Source: a bacterium
Lineage (GTDB): Bacteria; Electryoneota; Electryoneia; Electryoneales; Electryoneaceae
Reading direction: 5' to 3'
Length of the DNA stretch: 64,000 nucleotides
Assembly: GCA_020444265.1 (NCBI GenBank)
Contig: JAHLLH010000005.1
Coordinates: forward strand, 186,001 to 250,000
Numbering within the stretch: the stretch's first letter is position 1; each line of letters opens with the position of its first letter. The translations under genes and the position numbers were made by a program. The notes under the pieces are model-generated. The model did no database searches. It was not told where the DNA came from and worked only from the letters and a program-made list of their open reading frames with translations. Shown here one piece after another: positions 2 through 47,275 of this stretch.

Positions 2-1900
2 TATGCCTACAGTGGTGGTGTCTCCGGTTCGTACAGCGATCAAACGACCTCTGGCAACCGGTCCACCAGCTGGGATACGAAAATCCGTCACAATCAGGAC
101 ATCGACCAGTACACACGGCTGCGTGTGAACGCGACCTTTATCAGCGGCAAGAACCACACAGATGAGTATTATGACGATCCGACTCGTCGCCTGAAACAGG
201 ACATCCGCAGTAATGCGACCCTGACCAAAAGCTTCCCGAGCAATGGCGGGTCGATGTCGTTAAACCTCTCGCACACACAAAACCTGGTCACCAAGGTCAA
301 CTCCCAGACCCTGCCCAGCTTCAGCTATCGCATGGGTTCGAAAAACCTCTTCCCGAGCGAGCAGAAGAAAAAGTCAACCGACAAATCGCTGCTGTACGAA
401 CCGCCGACACCGCGTGAAAAACCGAGCAGCGGCAGCACCGAACGGGACCGCGACACAGACAAGTGGTACAACTCAATTACGTACAACTACTCGAACAGGT
501 TCGAGAATAAGCGTGACGAGACCCGGCCCGGCAACTCCAGCGACCTGACGATCCCGCTGGAAGAAACTTACCAGAGTGGGCTGACGCACAGCGTTTCGGT
601 AAACGCACCACAGAAGCTGTTTAAATACTTCAACTTGACTCCGAGCATCAGCTACCGCGAGGACTGGTTTAACGAACGGCGTGACTACTATTTCGCGACG
701 GATAGCACACTGAGCAGCGTGCAAGAACGTGGATTTTTCCAACGTCGCACCTTCTCCTCCAGTTTGACGGCAAACACAAAGCTATACGGCTTCTTCGGGA
801 TCAATCGAGGCACGGTTCAGGCGGTCCGTCATGTTATGACACCCTCGCTCAGTTTCCGCTTTGCACCAGACTTTTCCGACCCGGCATGGGGATACTACGA
901 GAAGTTGAGCAACTCAGTCACCGACACAGCCGGGGTCACACGGACCTATTCTGAAGAAGGAGACCGTTACAGAGGAAGCATCTTTGGTAGCACCTCCGCA
1001 CGCAAGCAACTCACCCTCGGGATGAACCTCAACAACCTCTTCCAGATGAAACGAGTCAAGCTTGGTGAGGATGGCGAGGAAGAGGAGCTTAAGAACGATC
1101 TCTTCACTTACAACCTCTCGACCAACTACAATTTTGCTGCCGACAGCATGCGTTTCGGACGACTCAGCGGTTCCTTCCGTGCCGATCCCATCACCGGGAA
1201 AAATTCGATAGGCCCCCTGGACCGGGTCAACATCCAAGTCTCAACCACCCACTCCTTCTACCAGTACCTGCAGGAGAAGGATGAGAATGGACGCAAGATC
1301 GGTGAAGTAGATCGTTTCTACTGGGATCAAACTGGGCATGGGCTCAATGTTGTCCGGCTAACCAGCTTTGAGACTTCCTCCAGCTTTTCGCTCTCCGGCA
1401 AGAGCCCCTTTGTCCGGGAACGGAAAGAAGCTCCGCCACCCGACCTCGAAGAGGACGATGCAGACAGCCTGTTGAGCGATGAGGACCGTGAGCTGAACGA
1501 GATTCGTAACGATCTGGACGACCGTTTCAAAGATCCGATCGACCGTGTAGCCCGGACTTCCAGTGGCAAGCCATGGCGTATCGGGGGCTCGATCCGCTAC
1601 AACCTCTCGATGAACGATCCGATCGAGCCGCAGGAAACCATTCGCTTGCAGGGGAACTTTACTGTCCAGTTGACCCCGAACTGGCAGTTCCAGTACTCCA
1701 CCTCACTCGATTTGCAGAACCGCGAAGTGGTCGGTTCCAACCTGATAATCAAACGTGACCTCCATTGCTGGGAAGGCAGTTTGCGTTGGAGCCCGCAAGG
1801 CATCGGCCAAGGCTTCTTCCTGCGCATCGGTATCAAGTCCCCGACCCTGCGCGACGTCAAGATCGAGCAACAGCGCGGCCGTGGTTCTCTCGGCTTCTAA
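2..1900 (+). CDS. lptD: LPS assembly outer-membrane protein LptD, C-terminal part (5' end outside window)
   Basis: The frame is open from base 2 to the TAA at 1898-1900, about 632 residues, and the start lies upstream of the window. The protein is rich in alternating aromatic and polar beta-strands. It carries the stretch RHVMTPSLSFRF followed by APDFSDPAWGYY, which resembles the barrel of Bacteroidetes-type LptD (OstA). Known role of the family: an outer-membrane barrel that, with LptE, inserts lipopolysaccharide into the outer leaflet. An acidic insert (about 1440-1510) probably forms a loop. The last residues end in GSLGF, a typical barrel terminus. The assignment rests on motif recall; another large outer-membrane barrel is the alternative. 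The aminotransferase starts 23 bp downstream. Confidence 0.72.
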   Translation, partial: YAYSGGVSGSYSDQTTSGNRSTSWDTKIRHNQDIDQYTRLRVNATFISGKNHTDEYYDDPTRRLKQDIRSNATLTKSFPSNGGSMSLNLSHTQNLVTKVNSQTLPSFSYRMGSKNLFPSEQKKKSTDKSLLYEPPTPREKPSSGSTERDRDTDKWYNSITYNYSNRFENKRDETRPGNSSDLTIPLEETYQSGLTHSVSVNAPQKLFKYFNLTPSISYREDWFNERRDYYFATDSTLSSVQERGFFQRRTFSSSLTANTKLYGFFGINRGTVQAVRHVMTPSLSFRFAPDFSDPAWGYYEKLSNSVTDTAGVTRTYSEEGDRYRGSIFGSTSARKQLTLGMNLNNLFQMKRVKLGEDGEEEELKNDLFTYNLSTNYNFAADSMRFGRLSGSFRADPITGKNSIGPLDRVNIQVSTTHSFYQYLQEKDENGRKIGEVDRFYWDQTGHGLNVVRLTSFETSSSFSLSGKSPFVRERKEAPPPDLEEDDADSLLSDEDRELNEIRNDLDDRFKDPIDRVARTSSGKPWRIGGSIRYNLSMNDPIEPQETIRLQGNFTVQLTPNWQFQYSTSLDLQNREVVGSNLIIKRDLHCWEGSLRWSPQGIGQGFFLRIGIKSPTLRDVKIEQQRGRGSLGF

Positions 1901-37340: not shown

Positions 37341-38345
37341 TTGAGTGACCAGAAGATACAGACCAGGGTGATTCGTTCACGCTCTTTTGACCCGTGGCAC
37401 AACCTGGCATTGGAAGAGGCATTGTTAGGGGATGTGACTCCGAACGAGGTCATCCTCTATTTGTGGCAGAACGAGAACACCGTTGTCATCGGCCGCAATC
37501 AGAATGCCTGGCAGGAATGCCGCTGGAAAGAGCTGGAGGCGGATAACGGCAAACTGGCACGCCGTCTCTCGGGTGGTGGTGCAGTTTACCATGACCTTGG
37601 CAACCTGAACTTCACGTTCGTGATGGACAAGAAACTCTTCGACCTCCATCGTCAGCTTGAAGTCATCCTCGGCGCAGTTAAACGCCTTGGGGTGGATGCC
37701 AAGTTCTCGGGACGAAACGACCTTGTCAGTGAGGACGGACGCAAATTCTCCGGCAATGCCTTCCATCATACTAACGATGCTGCCTACCATCATGGCACGC
37801 TGATGCTGGATGTCGATTTCAGCAAGTTGAGCCAGTATCTCCAAGTCAGCCAGGAGAAGATGAAATCCAAGGGTGTCACTTCGGTCAAGGCGCGAGTGGT
37901 CAACCTTGCGGAATTGAGCGATCAGGTTAGCCTCGAACCCTTGATGGATGCCCTGCGTGAGTCTTTTATCGAGGTCTACGGCGGCGATGGGGAAGAATTG
38001 CTGCCGAGTGACATCACAACAGACCTTACCCCGCTTTACGAGAAGTATTCCTCCTGGGAATGGCGGTACGGTCGCACCCCGAAGTTTGATGTCAACTACA
38101 GCACCCGTTTCACCTGGGGCGGTATTGACATGGGCTTCTCGCTGGAGGATGGTCGTGTCGCAGCCTGCACGATCTATTCCGATGCGATGGATAGCGCGTT
38201 AATCCAGGAAATTGCAGCACGTCTCGAGCAGATACCATTCCGGATTGATGCGATCATCGAGAAGCTGGAAAACATCGAGGTGGATGAGGCAGGCAAGGAG
38301 ATGTTGCAGGAGTTGGCCGATTGGCTTCGAACCCTTTCCATCTGA
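37341..38345 (+). CDS. lplA: Lipoate-protein ligase A
   Basis: 334 residues, TTG start at 37341 after GAGG. Motifs: WHNLALEEALL, VVIGRNQNAWQECR, RRLSGGGAVYHDLGNLNFT (lipoyl-AMP site), KFSGNAF with the catalytic-region lysine, and a C-terminal accessory domain beginning about residue 250 (WEWRYGRTPKFDVNY). It attaches free lipoate to the lipoyl domains of dehydrogenase complexes or GcvH. No lipoylated target lies in the window. Confidence 0.93.
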   Translation: MSDQKIQTRVIRSRSFDPWHNLALEEALLGDVTPNEVILYLWQNENTVVIGRNQNAWQECRWKELEADNGKLARRLSGGGAVYHDLGNLNFTFVMDKKLFDLHRQLEVILGAVKRLGVDAKFSGRNDLVSEDGRKFSGNAFHHTNDAAYHHGTLMLDVDFSKLSQYLQVSQEKMKSKGVTSVKARVVNLAELSDQVSLEPLMDALRESFIEVYGGDGEELLPSDITTDLTPLYEKYSSWEWRYGRTPKFDVNYSTRFTWGGIDMGFSLEDGRVAACTIYSDAMDSALIQEIAARLEQIPFRIDAIIEKLENIEVDEAGKEMLQELADWLRTLSI

Positions 38346-38367
38346 TCGATCTAATGATGCAATCTTT

Positions 38368-38399
38368 ACGGCGCGGAGTCTGGCTCGGCGCCGTTTTTC
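38368..38399 (+). terminator. Terminator after lplA
   Basis: ACGGCGC (38368-38374) / GCGCCGT (38388-38394), 13-nt loop, then TTTTC. Confidence 0.7.
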
Positions 38400-38520
38400 T
38401 TGTCGCCCGGGACCACTTTCGCCACCATCCGGGCCGTCTCGCAGTGTACATTGCCTGCTGCGGACAGATGAACGGTCCGTCAATTTCCGCAGCCTGGTCA
38501 AGCTTGGAGTGACACGAACG

Positions 38521-40296
38521 ATGCGACGTCTGCTGGTTGCCGCTCTCCTGCTGGTGGTCCTGACCCTGTCAGCGTATGCGCTCGATGTCGATTTAAACCA
38601 CCCGGTCTACGCTTTCCTCGAGCGATGTGAGCTGAAGGGCTACTTTCCCGATCCCCTCTCCGGCGCACGACCCTACACCCGTCGCACTATCGCCCTGCAC
38701 CTCACCTACGCGGCCGAGCACCGTTTGGAGTTGACCACCATCGAGAAACGTCAACTCGATTTTTATCTGTTCGAGTTCACGGATGATCTCCCTCCGACGT
38801 TTCAAGACTCGCTGCTTGGATCAAAAGATCCCTTTCACTTCGAGAATCGTGGCAGATCTTTTCCCTGGAGCAGGCTGCACCTCTACGATGACCCCCGCTA
38901 CATCTATAGCCAGAAGGGCGATGACTACCTCATGACCTTTAACCCTCATTTCGAATACGGGGTAAGCATTGTTGATGGGGAAAGTGAATCTGGAAGTTTG
39001 ACGGGGCGGATGACCGGGTTCGCGGTGATGGGATATTACAACGATTTTGGTCTTCTGGCAGTTGCACGAGATGAGTACTTCAGCGGAAAGACGTCCCTCG
39101 CCGATCAGGCACAGTACCCCGTCCGATTCGCTGCTGATGAACGTGAGGAGAATAGCTTTACCTTCGACCAATCGGATGCGATGTTCTCCTACGAGAACGA
39201 CCATGTCCAACTCACCTTCGGGAAGGGAAACAACAAGTGGGATTGGGGACAGTCGGGTTCTCTTGGGCTATCGGGGAATTCCAACACTTACACCCAACTG
39301 CGGTATCGGTTGACTTTCCAACCCTTTGAAGTGACCGGGATCCATGCCCGCTTGCGGCACTACCCGCTTTATATCATGGGAACAGATACCCTTGCTACGG
39401 GAACGGTTCAACGTGATTACGCAGAGAAATGGATGGTTGGGCATCATTACCAGGTCAACCTCTTCCCCTGGTTCCAGCTTGGGTTGTGGGACTTATTGAT
39501 CTATGGAGGCCGTGGCCTCGAATTCGATTATATCGCACCACTCTCCTTCCTCTGGTCCACCGAACATTACGCGCATGACCAGGACAATGTGATGCTCGGA
39601 GTCGATGGTCGAATTACCCCCGGAAAACGTTCGGAAATCTATTTCCAATGGTTCCTTGATGAGCTGCAGTTCGGCGAGTTGGGATCCGATTGGTGGGGAA
39701 ACAAGCATGGATACCTGATCGGAGCCCGTCAGATCGATCCACTCGGGATGAAGAACGCATCCATGGCGATCGAGTATCAGCGGTTGCGTCCCTACATCTA
39801 CACCCATTCGATCCCCTACAACAATGCCACCCACTACGGCCTGAACCTCGGTTCTTCACTTCCACCAAACAGTGAACTCTATTACTTCAGTTTGCGCCAG
39901 ATGGCACGCTGGAATCTGGAAACCTGGATTGAACTGAGCTACATCCGTCACGGTGCAACTCCTTTGAATGGCAGGAATGTGGGTGGGGATGTGAACCGGC
40001 CGCATTGGGATGACCACGATCCTGAGAAGGCAACATTCCTTGATGGCAACCTGCATTCCATCCGTCAAATGACCGTCGGGGCAAGCTGGCAAATCACCTA
40101 TCAACTGTACCTGGATGGATCGTTCCAGGTTTCAATGGATGATGTAGAAGACGCAAACGGTGCAACAGGTAATACGGTCACCCGGACCGGGATGGTGACC
40201 CTGCGTTGGCATCCCGCTATCTGGCGAGCTGACCGATCACTTTCCAGTGTTCTTTTCCGCGCAATACCGAACCAACCCATCGCCGAGGCAGATTAA
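38521..40296 (+). CDS. Capsule assembly Wzi-like outer-membrane protein
   Basis: 591 residues, start ATG 38521 with a weak GGAG site. The signal peptide is MRRLLVAALLLVVLTLSAYA. The mature protein has many amphipathic strands typical of a beta-barrel. Characteristic segments are FGKGNNKWDWGQSGSLGLSG, YTQLRYRLTFQPF, GGRGLEFDYIAPLSFLW and the end part YLDGSFQVSMDDV. Wzi-type proteins anchor capsule or surface polysaccharide at the outer membrane. No polysaccharide biosynthesis genes are nearby. The large ligase-acetyltransferase gene follows after 29 bp and may share the transcript. Confidence 0.75.
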   Translation: MRRLLVAALLLVVLTLSAYALDVDLNHPVYAFLERCELKGYFPDPLSGARPYTRRTIALHLTYAAEHRLELTTIEKRQLDFYLFEFTDDLPPTFQDSLLGSKDPFHFENRGRSFPWSRLHLYDDPRYIYSQKGDDYLMTFNPHFEYGVSIVDGESESGSLTGRMTGFAVMGYYNDFGLLAVARDEYFSGKTSLADQAQYPVRFAADEREENSFTFDQSDAMFSYENDHVQLTFGKGNNKWDWGQSGSLGLSGNSNTYTQLRYRLTFQPFEVTGIHARLRHYPLYIMGTDTLATGTVQRDYAEKWMVGHHYQVNLFPWFQLGLWDLLIYGGRGLEFDYIAPLSFLWSTEHYAHDQDNVMLGVDGRITPGKRSEIYFQWFLDELQFGELGSDWWGNKHGYLIGARQIDPLGMKNASMAIEYQRLRPYIYTHSIPYNNATHYGLNLGSSLPPNSELYYFSLRQMARWNLETWIELSYIRHGATPLNGRNVGGDVNRPHWDDHDPEKATFLDGNLHSIRQMTVGASWQITYQLYLDGSFQVSMDDVEDANGATGNTVTRTGMVTLRWHPAIWRADRSLSSVLFRAIPNQPIAEAD

Positions 40297-40325: not shown

Positions 40326-43300
40326 ATGATGGCATCATTGACGGACAAGCTTAAAAACACACTTGCTCGTTGGCAGGAAGAGCGGGAGAGTGACCGTTCC
40401 GCCACTACGGCAGAGGAACTGCTTGCCGTTGCCGAAACCATCATCGAGCGGAAAAAGCTGAAAAAGATTCCAGATGCCCTCGCCCATGCCTACCTCGAGG
40501 CAACCGGCGGCCCCGACTTTCTCGAAGCCCTCGACGATGCAGATGCCCGTCTTCGCTGGTCGGAAACTTCGTTCGCTTTCATCGATGCATGCGGGTATAC
40601 GCTTGAAACGATGATGGCCCATCGTGCCCAAGAACAGGCCGACAGAATTTACCTCGAAGAATATGGTCCTGCCACACCGGCACGCTGGAGCTACTCACGC
40701 ATCCATCGTCGGGTCCGTACCTTCGCGGCCAGTTTCCTAAGCCTGGAGGGATCGGAAACCCGAGTCGCTTTGTTTGTCGCCAACAGTGTGGATGGTGCCT
40801 GTTGCGACCTCGCCTGCCTGCTGCACGATATTCTGGTTACCCCACTCAACATCCATTTTGACACCCATGAACTTGTCTGGATCTTTGATCGCTTGAAGAT
40901 CACCGTTGCCGTCGCCGACAGCGAGGAACGGTTGCAGCGACTGCTGGATGTCAAACGTAAAGTCAAAGAGCCCTTTACCATCCTCTCCCTCCAGGCGAAC
41001 CGTTTCGTCGAAAAAGGGAAGGTGCAGCTCCTGACCGATATTGCCGCTCGAATGACCCCCGCCGAAGTGGATCAGTGGCTGGACGAACGGGACCGGTTCG
41101 GGCTGCATGATATTTGTACGGTGATGTTCACTTCCGGCAGCACAGGTAGTCCCAAAGGAGTCGCCTTTACCCAGTTCAACCTGGTGACCAAACGTTTCGC
41201 ACGTGCGGCGGTACTTCCGAGTGTGGGACGTGACGAACTCCTGCTTTGCTACCTGCCACTTTACCACACGTTTGGACGTTACCTAGAGCTGTTGGGGATG
41301 CTGTTTTGGCGGGGTACCTATGTCTTTGCCGGCAACCCTTCCGCAGAAACCCTGATCGCCGGAATGAAGAAGGTACGTCCCACTGGAATGATCTCGATCC
41401 CGTTGCGCTGGATGCAAATCCGTGACCGCGCCCAGGAACGTATGGATCAGGTGGTGACCTTCGAGGAACGGCAAACCATCTTCAACGAGTTGACTGGCGG
41501 CCGATTGAGCTGGGGCCTTTCCGCGGCCGGTTACCTCGAGCCGAAGGCTTTCAAGTTTTTCCACACCTATGGTGTTGAGCTGTGCAGCGGCTTCGGGATG
41601 ACCGAGGCGACGGGTGGCATCACCATGAGTCCGCCGTCGGACTACCTGAATGATACCGTCGGCATTGCTCTGCCCGGCATGAAAATCGCCTTCAGCGAGC
41701 TGGGTGAGATGAAAATCTCTGGTGTCTATGTAGCACGTTACCTCAGCGAGGAAGGTGAGTTCCTCGACCTCGCCGAGACTGAGATGCTCGAAGGCGAACC
41801 CTATCTCCCTACCGGCGACCTCTTCAAAGTTCTCGATCGCGGGCACCTGACAATTGTCGACCGGATCAAGGACATCTACAAGAACAATCGAGGGCAGACT
41901 GTCGCCCCCCGTCGCGTCGAGATGAAGTTTCAGGGGGTTCCTGGGATAAAAACAACCTTTCTCGTCGGCGATCATCGATCCTACAACGTCCTCCTGATTG
42001 TGACGGACGATGAGGACCCCGTCCTCCAGGGATCCAAGGATCCGGAAGAGCGGCGCGAGTACTTCCACCAGATCATCCACACAGCGAATCTTGACCTTGC
42101 CCCCTATGAACGAGTGGTCAACTTTGCCCTGCTGGATCGGGATTTCAGCCTTGATCGGGATGAACTTACACCTAAAGGGTCGTTCAAACGTAAGGTGATT
42201 GAGGAACACTTCAGCGAGCTGATCCAGCAGCTTTATGATCGCAATTACGTCGAGCTGAAGTTCGAATCGGTCAAGGTTCGTTTGCCGCGCTGGTTCTTCC
42301 GCGACCTGGGGATACTCGAGGATGATATTACCATCTCCCAGGCTGGGCTGTGGGACCGTCAGCGGTCTCGTTTCCTGCCCCTGCGTATGGATCACGACGA
42401 GGGCATGCTACTGGTCGGCGACCTGGAGTATACAATCGGGTCTGATGTTCTCGACCTGGGCTTGTTTGCGCGTCAGCCCCGGCTCTGGATCGGCAACCCT
42501 TCGCTGATCGAATTTGCCCCTTGCAAGGAGGGGTGGGATGTCCCGATGGGCAAGGTGTCAGCCTATGCAATGCTGCCGCGCGGGCGATCTCAAGAACCTC
42601 TCGATCAGGCGTCCGACCCGGACCACATTGGCGACTCGCGGCTGCTTTCGATCAACCGGCTTGTCCAGTGCGCACTCTTCTTCAGTGTTGAGGAGTCGAA
42701 ACGTTGCCTGAACACGCTCAGTGGTGAATTGATCGGAACGGACGACCGTCTGGGGCAACTCGTTCGACGCAGGATAACCGCGCTCGCACGACACGATAAT
42801 GAGGATATCCGAAGCCTTGCTTATCGAGTCCTGTTGCTCGACGAACCAATGCCGGACTATAGTGTTGCCTTTCCGGCCTTTGTTCAGTCTGGGCTGCCCT
42901 TCCTGAACGAAGAGTCCATCAAGGCAATCACCTCAACCAGCTTTGAACAGCGTCGGCTCGAGGCTCTGCGTCAGCGGCTCTACAGCTACCGTCGCCAACT
43001 GAGTTGGCCAGCTACTCAGATGGTGCGCAACCAGTTCGAAGGTGTGCTTCGCCTGCTAGTCAATTTTGTCCACTTCCACCCGGAGTACTACAAGCCGGTT
43101 CGTGCCGAGCTGGCGAGCTGGATACTACACCGTGAGGACCAGGACCTCTCCGCCTTCGCTGAAGCGCAGTTGAAAGAACTGGTGGATTGGTTTGAGCAAC
43201 GGTTGGAGGAAGAATCGGTCCAGCTCGATTCAGCTTGGTTGGATGAATTGCTCGTCTTTGACGACGATCTCTCACCGGATATGCGAAAACGGCTGAAGGA

Positions 43301-44954
43301 ATTGCTGGTTGGGTCAACCTTCCTGCGTCAATCGGTCCTGCTCGCTTTCGATGAGGAATCCTTCGACATTGACCAGATCCCCAGCGGTGGAATCTGGGTC
43401 TCGCGAATCCAAAGCAGAGAAGCCTTCCTCAACTATCGTGTCAGCATGAACACACTGACCGGGAAACACTTTGATTTGCTGGTCATTCTGCGCGAGGATG
43501 TCAACGCGGAGGCCGTACGAGATACCAACCACTGGATGATGGTGATCGCGGGCAATCCTTATGGTCAACGTGTCATGCCCCGATTCGGCTGTTTCCGTCC
43601 CGAACTGGCAGCGATGTCGCTGGAGTTTGTCAACGAGTTGACGGCGTGGGACAAGATTCGCGAATTCGCAAGCGTCCATCACCCGGAACAACATCAGCAC
43701 GACCCGTCCGAATGGCGCAAGCTTTTCGTGCGCTCGATGGCCACCTTCTTCATAGCGTGGAAAAATTCCGGTCGGCGTATCGTCCCGGGAACCGTTAGCC
43801 CGATCAACGTTGTCGTCCCAGAGCTCGACTTCCGCGAGGGGGCACAGATCTTGTCCTTGACGGGCTGGGAACAATACCGCAGTACATTCTCGCTGTTCCG
43901 CCCGCTTTTCTCCTCCTTCTACCGTAAGATTGCCGCTCATTATCCAGCGACAATCAAATTGCTGCGGTACGAGTGGATGTTTGATGCATGCGTTGATGCT
44001 CTAGGACGTCAGGAGGGTCGATCTCTGCTCGAAAGGTTCCAAGAGGAAATCCAGCAGGAAGAACAGTCACCGTTTGCTGAAGATATCATTCGAGCGCTTG
44101 ACAACTATCTCACCGGGATGGATGATCGATGGTACGTGCCCCTCGCGCTGCATAATGCGATTGACCGCTACCATGACTGGCTTACGATCAATCCGCTGGT
44201 GACATCGCAGGCGCGAGCCGAACTGATCGAGGGTTTGATCAGCCTGTACCGCTTGGAACGCTACAGTGAAATCGCACGCTATTATCTCTACCGAAATACC
44301 TATTTCTTTGATGGTGACCAAGATGTTGTCGATGTCTTTGATCGCCTTCTTGAGACCCTTCGCCTCAACCCGGATCGTGTCGCCACTTCGCTGGTCGAGT
44401 TGTCCGACCTGCAAGCGGCCCTCCAGGAGAGTGAAGACCTCGATGCGTTCAGCCGCCTGGTTTTCCCGCAAGCGCATCGTCCTCAACCACTTGAAGTCAT
44501 CACTGTCGGCGACAGCGAACACAAGCAGGTGGTCGTACGAACACACCTCACGGACATCCAGGGCGAACGCTATGACATCCGTGAGCCAATTGAACCGGAA
44601 GAAGTTGGACAGATCTACCGGCTCTTCTTCCAGGAACATTTCCCGAAAACCGTCTCCGAACTGGATCGTTACCTGATCGTGCTGGACAGCACAGACCGTG
44701 TGATCGCCGGGCTCTGCTACCGGATGCAGGATCGTGAAGTGGTCCACATGGAAGGTTTGGTTACCAGCTCACCCCTCACAGGCCGCGGGATTGCCACCAG
44801 TTTGCTGGAAGATTTTGTCACTCGCCTCGCCAGCCAGGGCATCCAAGTGCTTAAAACCGGGTTTATCATGCGAGACTTCTGCGAGAAACGAGGCTTCCGT
44901 GTCGACCGCAGATGGGGCGGGTTGGTTCGCTTCCTGGGGCAACAAGAGGTATAA
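40326..44954 (+). CDS. Giant adenylate-forming (AMP-binding) ligase fused to a helical middle region and a GNAT acetyltransferase
   Basis: 1542 residues. About 60-640: ANL-superfamily ligase with ATP P-loop MFTSGSTGSPKGV (about 268-280), YLPLYHTFGR, SGFGMTEATGG, LPTGDLFKVLDRGHLTIVDR and the adenylation lysine in PKGSFKRKVI. This order matches long-chain acyl-CoA ligases. About 640-1390: unrecognised, with HEAT/ARM-like helical repeats (about 780-960) and a block with HFDLLVILRED, HWMMVIAGNPYGQRV and PRFGCFRPELA. About 1395-1535: GNAT domain with EGLVTSSPLTGRGIATSLLE as the acetyl-CoA loop. A single polypeptide that both activates an acid and transfers an acyl group is implied. The substrate is unknown. 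ATG 40329 is an alternative start. Confidence 0.85.
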   Translation: MMASLTDKLKNTLARWQEERESDRSATTAEELLAVAETIIERKKLKKIPDALAHAYLEATGGPDFLEALDDADARLRWSETSFAFIDACGYTLETMMAHRAQEQADRIYLEEYGPATPARWSYSRIHRRVRTFAASFLSLEGSETRVALFVANSVDGACCDLACLLHDILVTPLNIHFDTHELVWIFDRLKITVAVADSEERLQRLLDVKRKVKEPFTILSLQANRFVEKGKVQLLTDIAARMTPAEVDQWLDERDRFGLHDICTVMFTSGSTGSPKGVAFTQFNLVTKRFARAAVLPSVGRDELLLCYLPLYHTFGRYLELLGMLFWRGTYVFAGNPSAETLIAGMKKVRPTGMISIPLRWMQIRDRAQERMDQVVTFEERQTIFNELTGGRLSWGLSAAGYLEPKAFKFFHTYGVELCSGFGMTEATGGITMSPPSDYLNDTVGIALPGMKIAFSELGEMKISGVYVARYLSEEGEFLDLAETEMLEGEPYLPTGDLFKVLDRGHLTIVDRIKDIYKNNRGQTVAPRRVEMKFQGVPGIKTTFLVGDHRSYNVLLIVTDDEDPVLQGSKDPEERREYFHQIIHTANLDLAPYERVVNFALLDRDFSLDRDELTPKGSFKRKVIEEHFSELIQQLYDRNYVELKFESVKVRLPRWFFRDLGILEDDITISQAGLWDRQRSRFLPLRMDHDEGMLLVGDLEYTIGSDVLDLGLFARQPRLWIGNPSLIEFAPCKEGWDVPMGKVSAYAMLPRGRSQEPLDQASDPDHIGDSRLLSINRLVQCALFFSVEESKRCLNTLSGELIGTDDRLGQLVRRRITALARHDNEDIRSLAYRVLLLDEPMPDYSVAFPAFVQSGLPFLNEESIKAITSTSFEQRRLEALRQRLYSYRRQLSWPATQMVRNQFEGVLRLLVNFVHFHPEYYKPVRAELASWILHREDQDLSAFAEAQLKELVDWFEQRLEEESVQLDSAWLDELLVFDDDLSPDMRKRLKELLVGSTFLRQSVLLAFDEESFDIDQIPSGGIWVSRIQSREAFLNYRVSMNTLTGKHFDLLVILREDVNAEAVRDTNHWMMVIAGNPYGQRVMPRFGCFRPELAAMSLEFVNELTAWDKIREFASVHHPEQHQHDPSEWRKLFVRSMATFFIAWKNSGRRIVPGTVSPINVVVPELDFREGAQILSLTGWEQYRSTFSLFRPLFSSFYRKIAAHYPATIKLLRYEWMFDACVDALGRQEGRSLLERFQEEIQQEEQSPFAEDIIRALDNYLTGMDDRWYVPLALHNAIDRYHDWLTINPLVTSQARAELIEGLISLYRLERYSEIARYYLYRNTYFFDGDQDVVDVFDRLLETLRLNPDRVATSLVELSDLQAALQESEDLDAFSRLVFPQAHRPQPLEVITVGDSEHKQVVVRTHLTDIQGERYDIREPIEPEEVGQIYRLFFQEHFPKTVSELDRYLIVLDSTDRVIAGLCYRMQDREVVHMEGLVTSSPLTGRGIATSLLEDFVTRLASQGIQVLKTGFIMRDFCEKRGFRVDRRWGGLVRFLGQQEV

Positions 44955-45820: not shown

Positions 45821-47275
45821 ATGGAGCAAGAGAAAACACGTCTCATAAAGCGGGTTCTGCGAACGGTACGTAAAGACACCCAGGTCTGGGTGCGTGCGAT
45901 GGAGCTTGGATCCGCTTCCATCGGCATGCAGTCTGCACGACTTGCCAATGAGTTGAGACTGAACGCAGCGACCTGGACCACTAATCTGGAAACGGTTGAG
46001 AGACTCCTGACCACCGCAGAAGAAATCTCCTTTGAGCTGATTGATAAGATTCTGGACCTGCTTCCACCCCAACGTGTCATTAGCCGCTTCAACCTCGAAC
46101 GGTTAACCCCACTATACGATCAAATCTGCCTTGATAAGGGCATCGAACTGGCAGATCTCTTCCGCCAGGGCGAAAGTGCTGTCGATCGGGGTGATTACGA
46201 TATCGGTCTGAATATCCTCGATGCTGTCCTGAAGCGTGACCCCCGGTTTTACCCCGCGCTGATAGTTAGCGGGATGACGATGTTGAAAGATAAACGGGAA
46301 CGACCCAACGCGATCCGTCTCCTGGACCGATCTGTCGGCCTGCCTCCCGTGGTCAGCCCCGAACGCTTCAAACGATTATCACTCGAACTGCTTGCACATG
46401 GCTTCGAGCAGGATGAAAAATACCTGAATGCGATCAAGACGTTGAAGCGGTTGCAGAAACTTGGCGACCATTCAGCAGCACTCGAGTACAATATTGCACG
46501 CAATTATGCTGTCAACGGTCAGGGGTCGGAGGTGTCGAACCATATCATCGATGCCATCACCATTCGTCCCTCGCTAATTTCCCTCGCGCTTGTGGATGAT
46601 CAGTTTTCACGTGTGCGGAAGGATGTGCTCCAGGTTCTCGAGGATCGCAGCGAGGAAATGGGCGAGAAGAGCCTCGACCTGCTGAAACATGCTTGGCAAA
46701 TCCGTGATATGGCGCAGGGGTATGGACTACAGGAGGTGGACGGTGAGATCGCATCCGGTTTAGATGAATTGCAGCAGATGGAAGACAGCCTGACAGAGGG
46801 CTGTTACACGGTTTATCGCGACCTGCTCAGGAGACGAATTCCTGCCTGGGTTGAAGACTTCCCCGCGAGGGTTAAAAGCCGACTGGGACGTGAAGTCACA
46901 CGTCGTATGGACGAGATCAACCGTTACAACGATGAACTCGAGCAGATCGCTGATCAACGTCGCAGCATGTTCATGCGGGTTGGCGTCCCCCTCTGGGGAG
47001 CATTCAGCCTGCTGATCCTCGTCCTGCTCATCCTCAGCGGCCAGCATCCACTGACTTCACTTTTTGTCGCTCTTGTGCTGCTGGCACTCGGGTATGTCCC
47101 GGTGAGTATCATCAACAGAATGCTGAAACGGACGGTGGAGGAACAGCGGATGCCTCCTGACCTGATGCTTGAGGTAAAGAGAGATGTCGGTCAGGTTGAA
47201 CTGATTCGTACGGGAATCATGAACAAACTTCGTCAGGATGGCTATCTGCAGGAAAAAGAAGTGGCGAAGGTGTAG
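45821..47275 (+). CDS. TPR-like helical repeat protein with two C-terminal membrane helices
   Basis: 484 residues; not recognised as a named family. N-terminal helical region (1-110), TPR-like repeats at about 110-270 (FRQGESAVDRGDYDIGLNIL, AIKTLKRLQKLGDHSAALEYN), a coiled-coil region, then two hydrophobic helices (VPLWGAFSLLILVLLILSG and LTSLFVALVLLALGYVP, about residues 388-430) and a soluble tail. It is probably a cytoplasmic scaffold tethered to the inner membrane. ATG 45821 lies after a GGGGAG site. It is followed 5 bp later by yggT, so the two are probably one operon. Confidence 0.65.
   Translation: MEQEKTRLIKRVLRTVRKDTQVWVRAMELGSASIGMQSARLANELRLNAATWTTNLETVERLLTTAEEISFELIDKILDLLPPQRVISRFNLERLTPLYDQICLDKGIELADLFRQGESAVDRGDYDIGLNILDAVLKRDPRFYPALIVSGMTMLKDKRERPNAIRLLDRSVGLPPVVSPERFKRLSLELLAHGFEQDEKYLNAIKTLKRLQKLGDHSAALEYNIARNYAVNGQGSEVSNHIIDAITIRPSLISLALVDDQFSRVRKDVLQVLEDRSEEMGEKSLDLLKHAWQIRDMAQGYGLQEVDGEIASGLDELQQMEDSLTEGCYTVYRDLLRRRIPAWVEDFPARVKSRLGREVTRRMDEINRYNDELEQIADQRRSMFMRVGVPLWGAFSLLILVLLILSGQHPLTSLFVALVLLALGYVPVSIINRMLKRTVEEQRMPPDLMLEVKRDVGQVELIRTGIMNKLRQDGYLQEKEVAKV

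Follow-up and report, generated by a model that had tools for sequence, protein, structure and literature searches.

A single gene of the 64,000-nucleotide stretch of bacterial DNA analysed here (the window) encodes a fusion of an AMP-forming ligase of the ANL superfamily, a long middle region and a GNAT acetyltransferase domain. The architecture is widespread, new with respect to the open-access literature, in which no description of this fusion was found, and strongly associated with a pathway, the citric acid cycle. A conserved chain of 1540 residues that combines two enzyme domains with a putative pseudokinase, is present in at least six phyla and repeatedly has cycle genes as neighbours points to an undescribed regulator, which we tentatively read as a protein acyltransferase.

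Domain layout and distribution of the fusion

The original prediction, made from the DNA letters, was that a ligase, an unrecognised middle and a GNAT domain share one chain. This fusion is genuine: Pfam matched AMP-binding to residues 99-455 (E 1e-46), AMP-binding_C_3 to residues 522-639 (E 9e-9) and Acetyltransf_1 to residues 1438-1524 (E 1e-6), and the GNAT fold was recovered by structural comparison (see below). No Pfam family matched residues 640-1390, about 750 residues in all. The reading frame is intact, as it matched itself without internal stops in the source genome (a 4.3 Mb assembly of 19 contigs), where the remaining matches were ordinary ligases of 22-29% identity, confined to the ANL part. 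The parts of the chain and the genes upstream are listed in Table 1.

Table 1. Positions in the window of the fusion gene, of the parts of its product and of two upstream genes.
Feature	Residues	Position	Strand	Basis and remarks
Lipoate-protein ligase LplA		37341..38345	+	Pfam; upstream neighbour
Wzi-like beta-barrel gene		38362..40296	+	PF14052, E 6e-14; neighbour not conserved beside relatives
Fusion gene, whole	1-1542	40326..44954	+	1542 aa, ATG start; ORF list and translation
N-terminal extension	1-98	40326..40619	+	Weak conservation, no family match
ANL large subdomain	99-455	40620..41690	+	Pfam AMP-binding; motif columns essentially invariant
Motifs in ANL large subdomain	269-278, 314-318, 421-427			A3 TSGSTGSPKG, A4 HTFGR, A5 SGFGMTE
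ANL C-terminal subdomain	522-639	41889..42242	+	Pfam AMP-binding_C_3
Displaced A10-type lysine (ELTPKGSFKRK)	617	42174..42176	+	Invariant, 60/60
Small beta-rich module	~640-750	42243..42575	+	AlphaFold2 model, pLDDT about 90
Helical solenoid	~771-1008	42636..43349	+	AlphaFold2 model; Foldseek
Protein-kinase-like fold	~1010-1379	43353..44462	+	Own model, Foldseek, VIA; catalytic residues not conserved
Beta hairpin and GNAT domain	~1389-1542	44490..44951	+	Pfam Acetyltransf_1; VIA

Relatives of the middle region were found in 5 of the 39 genomes of the window's phylum, all of them in the window's own family. An alignment of these relatives was then used to scan contigs from one genome per species, which yielded 36 loci, all labelled as MAGs, in Calditrichaeota, Acidobacteria, Aminicenantes, Zixibacteria, Bacteroidetes/Bacteroidales, Gemmatimonadetes/Longimicrobiales and Lysobacterales. 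On complete contigs nearly all loci are single ORFs of about 1530-1640 aa; the gene is split in two frames at L022 and L044, and one relative (G191:C90:47977-50682) has one in-frame TGA. Even relatives whose middle region is about 21% identical keep the architecture, which extends across at least six phyla and is present in the window's family, Acidobacteriota, Aminicenantes, Bacteroidota, Gemmatimonadota, Zixibacteria and Lysobacterales. The recurrence in other phyla that had been proposed as a check of the prediction was therefore found, and since full-length homologues in other phyla are 40-60% identical, the existence of the ORF as a full-length protein family is far beyond chance. The gene is patchily distributed, usually with one copy per genome: it occurs in 22/247 genomes of the phylum to which the Aminicenantes locus belongs (with a fragment of 45 residues as one of the 22), in 16/296 and 7/249 of the sampled Bacteroidota and Gemmatimonadota, in 1/274 genomes of a gammaproteobacterial class, and in 1/132 and 2/4 genomes of two further phyla. 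The tree consists of two deep clades with full local support, and the window falls in the first together with L016, L017 and L034.

Ligase, kinase-like and GNAT domains

All ANL motifs had been claimed for the N-terminal part. Motifs A3 to A8 are essentially invariant in about 58 sequences, which keep the columns TSG[ST]TG..KG, SGFG.[TS]E, TGD498 (the A7 Asp) and DR513.K (the A8 Arg), so that the marks of the superfamily (P-loop A3, A5, A7 Asp and A8 Arg) are all there; the A10 lysine, however, lies two residues off its usual place. The canonical column holds Ser/Thr619, and Lys617, two residues upstream, occurs in all 60 sequences. The lysine, whose disabling would have spoken against the prediction, is displaced and not absent. 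Two stand-alone ligase-like proteins of the source genome, L002 and L003, have the same displacement (KTSKRSIKR and KTTKRTIKR; FQKTSKRSIKRF, FQKTTKRTIKRF), and because they share it the displacement appears to be a variant that recurs among ligases and not damage to the fusion family. The idea of a disabled ANL lysine is weakened by these ligases and by the invariance of K617. The conservation of A3 to A8 together with that of K617 indicates that the ANL domain is, as judged from the alignment, under catalytic-type constraint.

By sequence, the best ANL matches are FadD-like fatty acyl-CoA ligases (FadD11) and the A domains of carboxylic acid reductases (CAR). However, NCBIfam gave the ligase part only sub-threshold matches of FadD or CAR type, the best reaching 127.8 bits against a curated cut-off of 476 for FadD, and 105.9 bits against 1300 for CAR. 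The fusion is therefore far below both cut-offs, it has the displaced A10 lysine, and Pfam matched neither the PCP nor the reductase of the A-PCP-reductase architecture of CAR. By the criteria tested the protein is neither Pat, CAR nor FadD; by domain it is an ANL member with a displaced A10 lysine and a member of the GNAT and kinase-like superfamilies.

The middle region was resolved by structure prediction, which had been suggested for residues 640-1390. An AlphaFold2 model of residues 640-1542 (903 residues, from an alignment of 29 sequences) had a mean pLDDT of 86.7; in it a beta module is followed by a helical solenoid, then by an alpha/beta domain with two lobes and finally by the GNAT domain. 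The signature FARQPRLW...CKEGW of the beta-rich module is among the conserved patterns of the family. The HEAT-like repeats of the original prediction are borne out for residues ~771-1008, which form the solenoid, but not for residues 1010-1379, which have a kinase-like fold; a middle made of HEAT repeats throughout is rejected on the predicted structures. Known folds can thus be assigned to the middle, but their combination does not explain the fusion. The middle sequence had no convincing relative in the PDB outside the GNAT part, and among the roughly 1,100 genomes sampled, from five groups, none was seen to have it as a free-standing domain: matches lay in long frames, apart from short ones that were taken as contig ends or fragments.

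Foldseek searches with the 903-residue model placed VPS34, PI3K and mTOR chains on top, with matches covering the helical and kinase parts, followed by GCN5-type GNATs. The likeness to PI3K/PIKK modules such as VPS34 and mTOR lies in the succession of solenoid and kinase fold; however, the TM-score is only about 0.2 and the overall arrangement is different, the comparison being one of fold. When the two-lobed domain was modelled alone (residues 1004-1386, pLDDT 88), the top Foldseek rows were all kinase folds. VIA gave Bud32/PRPK as the best match (Z 14.5, 209 residues, rmsd 3.6, 9% identity), followed by the lanthipeptide kinase LxmK, a corramycin phosphotransferase and RIO1, in lists from which the absence of a family does not exclude that family. 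By Foldseek and by the Bud32 match, the predicted model has a two-lobed kinase fold, and it is in the fold of residues 1010-1379 that the protein resembles Bud32/PRPK, RIO1, APH and LxmK.

Kinase motifs were mapped by eye onto the predicted secondary structure. On this mapping column 1156 (HRD) and column 1179 (DFG) are variable: over the whole set, 13 sequences have Asp at the former, which is the residue there in part of the second clade, and Asp is not among the residues counted at the latter. No conserved beta-3 Lys was found in the third strand, and Asn1161 of the catalytic loop alone is kept, almost invariantly (53/59). In contrast to Bud32-type kinases, the fusion shows no conservation in the columns for the Asp of HRD, the Asp of DFG and the beta-3 Lys. 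We call residues ~1010-1379 a pseudokinase-like domain, on the strength of a predicted fold; for an active kinase the catalytic columns give no support.

The C-terminal domain has a GNAT fold, with YhbS (Z 16.4, 136 residues, rmsd 2.6) and GCN5 (Z 16.3) as VIA matches; the nearest GNAT folds in the Foldseek and VIA comparisons included the protein acetyltransferases GCN5, PCAF and PatZ. The CoA loop (R/Q-x-x-G-x-G/A) is less conserved than the ANL motifs. It reads TGRGIA in the window, with Thr at the usual Arg/Gln, whereas this first position is Arg or Gln in 33/56 relatives; Gly1488 is kept in 53/56. A disabled acetyl-CoA loop was the other weak point foreseen for the prediction; the window's own copy departs from the usual residues at this position, while most relatives retain Arg or Gln.

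Citric acid cycle genes and the possible role of the protein

No neighbour was shared across phyla in the first comparison, and a conserved operon was rejected for the window's clade. The link with citrate synthase was seen after 20 loci, mostly of the second clade, had been added. A citrate synthase gene lies within 3 kb of the fusion gene in 20 loci, in both deep clades, and the neighbouring enzyme is a citrate (Si)-synthase of the eukaryotic type. It is found upstream on the same strand (L023, L049, L087, L088, L090-L094, L119, L120), downstream on the same strand at 280-360 bp (L095, L097) or downstream and convergent at 28-290 bp (L024, L060, L098, L100, L127, L130). At L038 the synthase gene is upstream and divergent, and its product belongs to another, non-orthologous type (PRK14032; identity to the probe 27%); aconitase is 201 bp away, and on the other side NADP-isocitrate dehydrogenase follows the fusion gene by 126 bp. 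An isocitrate dehydrogenase gene is also found 25 bp downstream of the fusion gene at L029. Because the linkage also takes in a synthase that is not orthologous and the two enzymes that come next in the cycle, it favours a functional association over a historical one. It requires at least 9 changes on the tree, and a synthase lies within 5 kb in 17/53 genomes with the gene, where about 0.1-0.5 would be expected (the binomial test was run with 18 instead of 17, which leaves the conclusion unchanged). This neighbourhood shows a shared pathway and not a target. In one genome (G1017:C1) the synthase adjoining the fusion gene is matched in two pieces 340 kb apart (3487587-3488405 and 3826459-3827073), perhaps an assembly fault.

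The two genes also co-occur. In three groups outside the window's phylum, a eukaryote-type synthase (at least 48% identity) was present in 39/44 genomes with the fusion gene and in 11/60 without it (Fisher p 3e-13, a value that overstates the evidence, since the controls were the first listed genomes without a match and kinship was uncorrected). Within the window's phylum the synthase was present in 5/5 genomes with the gene and in 19/20 without it.

Judged by its domains, the protein would combine activation by the ANL part with transfer by the GNAT part, joined by a large scaffold for docking proteins; the genomic context supplies likely substrates. Activation and transfer in one chain are plausible because the fusion recurs, A3 to A8 are near-invariant and the GNAT fold is clear; transfer to a protein is also plausible. 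We therefore put forward as the favoured reading, tentatively and short of calling it probable, a large, single-copy, lysine acetyltransferase-like protein acyltransferase that would act on the early oxidative enzymes of the cycle, above all citrate synthase (or aconitase or isocitrate dehydrogenase). The GNAT domain at the C terminus would take the acyl group from acyl-CoA and place it on a target lysine, the N-terminal ligase would make the acyl-CoA or sense acid, ATP, AMP and CoA status, and the solenoid and pseudokinase would form a scaffold that docks the target and couples both ends, perhaps with a bound nucleotide. We infer the protein acceptor, its identity as citrate synthase (or aconitase or isocitrate dehydrogenase), the acyl group and whether the modification would be inhibitory. 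Against this reading speak the genomes that have the eukaryote-type synthase but not the fusion gene, the missing cycle-gene linkage in the window and in most of its clade, and the looser CoA loop with its Thr in the window.

As a working analogy, the fusion may work like the Pat-type protein acetyltransferases, GNATs for which fusion to an acyl-CoA synthetase-like domain is a precedent (PMC8556138). Pat, PatZ and PatA (types I and II) are likewise large chains with acyl-CoA-synthetase-type and GNAT domains, and PatZ is among the Foldseek matches. The available text of the reviews describes five types of bacterial GNAT acetyltransferase, types I and II sensing acetyl-CoA through a synthetase domain of the NDP-forming kind that is inactive, and none of the five, as described there, having an AMP-forming ANL or a kinase-like domain (PMC8556138; PMC6456759). 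The fusion differs from Pat by its AMP-forming ANL domain with conserved motifs, and the type I/II synthetase domain, as defined in the available text of PMC8556138, was not matched in Pfam or NCBIfam, where AMP-binding families alone matched. Measured against the types as so described, the fusion fits none of the five. It also adds the solenoid and the pseudokinase-like domain to what Pat contains, with 1542 aa against about 900. Another likeness is to Rv2170 of Mycobacterium tuberculosis, which is not known to have a ligase or a kinase-like domain. Rv2170 is a protein acetyltransferase and is reported to modulate carbon metabolism at the isocitrate node (PMC5428333). If the acyltransferase reading is right, one more type would stand beside the five, and a concrete protein pair would be at hand to test. 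As the gate of central metabolism, citrate synthase would give such a regulator its importance. A bolder form of this reading, possible but doubtful, is that the protein is a dedicated control hub for the oxidative entry of the citric acid cycle, which would read acid, CoA and ATP status and set citrate synthase, aconitase and isocitrate dehydrogenase by acylation, with a role analogous to that of AceK and as a sixth type of bacterial protein acetyltransferase.

The GNAT domain might instead act on its own chain, in the manner of a built-in Pat-Acs switch. The ligase would then be a metabolic enzyme whose acyl-CoA feeds citrate synthase or another acyl-CoA user, acetylation of K617 would shut it off, and the solenoid and pseudokinase would arrange this regulation in cis. 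The proximity of ligase and citrate synthase would parallel the known one of prpE and prpC, and no part of the chain is better conserved than the ANL motifs, with K617 invariant. The GNATs Pat and AcuA do acetylate the active-site lysine of AMP-forming ligases (PMC11255334; PMC4053389). We nevertheless consider such a switch unlikely, as the ANL domain is FadD/CAR-like and not ACS-like, its lysine is two residues away from the usual A10 position, a switch in cis would not need as many as 750 additional conserved residues, and prp genes were not seen among the annotated neighbours.

A biosynthetic role, in which a fatty or aromatic acid, once activated by the ligase, is passed by the GNAT domain to a small amine or amino acid to give an N-acyl metabolite, would suit the FadD-like ANL and the combination of activation and transfer in a single chain; many GNATs acylate small molecules. 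The proximity to citrate synthase would then be incidental or due to expression needs. This seems improbable, because no conserved biosynthetic cluster surrounds the gene, whose conserved neighbours are cycle genes, and because protein acetyltransferases are among the nearest GNAT folds. An AceK-like enzyme, in which an active kinase-like domain phosphorylates isocitrate dehydrogenase or citrate synthase under the regulation of the GNAT and ANL domains, could draw on the fold, the adjoining genes of both enzymes, the nearly invariant Asn1161 and the HRD-column Asp of part of the second clade, but is very unlikely given the by-eye mapping, with DFG-column Asp absent among the residues counted, no conserved beta-3 Lys and the HRD Asp in a minority.

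Other neighbours of the gene

The window itself has no cycle-gene linkage: citrate synthase is on another contig of the source genome, and most members of the window's clade are without an adjacent cycle gene. Of the relatives with sufficient flanking sequence, the two nearest also have LplA near the gene (L012/L016 and L013/L034; 65-68% identical), and HtrA, further upstream, is shared in part. As lipoate serves the pyruvate and 2-oxoglutarate dehydrogenases, this neighbourhood also touches the citric acid cycle. The gap of 29 bp between the Wzi-like gene and the fusion gene is as had been claimed, but the outer-membrane link at which it hinted was rejected, as a Wzi-like gene similar to that of the window adjoins the fusion gene at no other locus. 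Downstream in the window (45821-47275) a gene encodes a 484-aa protein that matches TPR weakly and probably has a membrane segment; no relative of it was found at other loci next to the fusion gene. In one MAG a gene for the mercury-methylation corrinoid protein HgcA lies just upstream of the fusion gene (L042:4636-5685; L044 has the same gene cluster), and at Aminicenantes-type loci a GntR/MocR-type regulator adjoins it on either side (L028:5947-6963 and L045:9109-10182; also L033 and L036).
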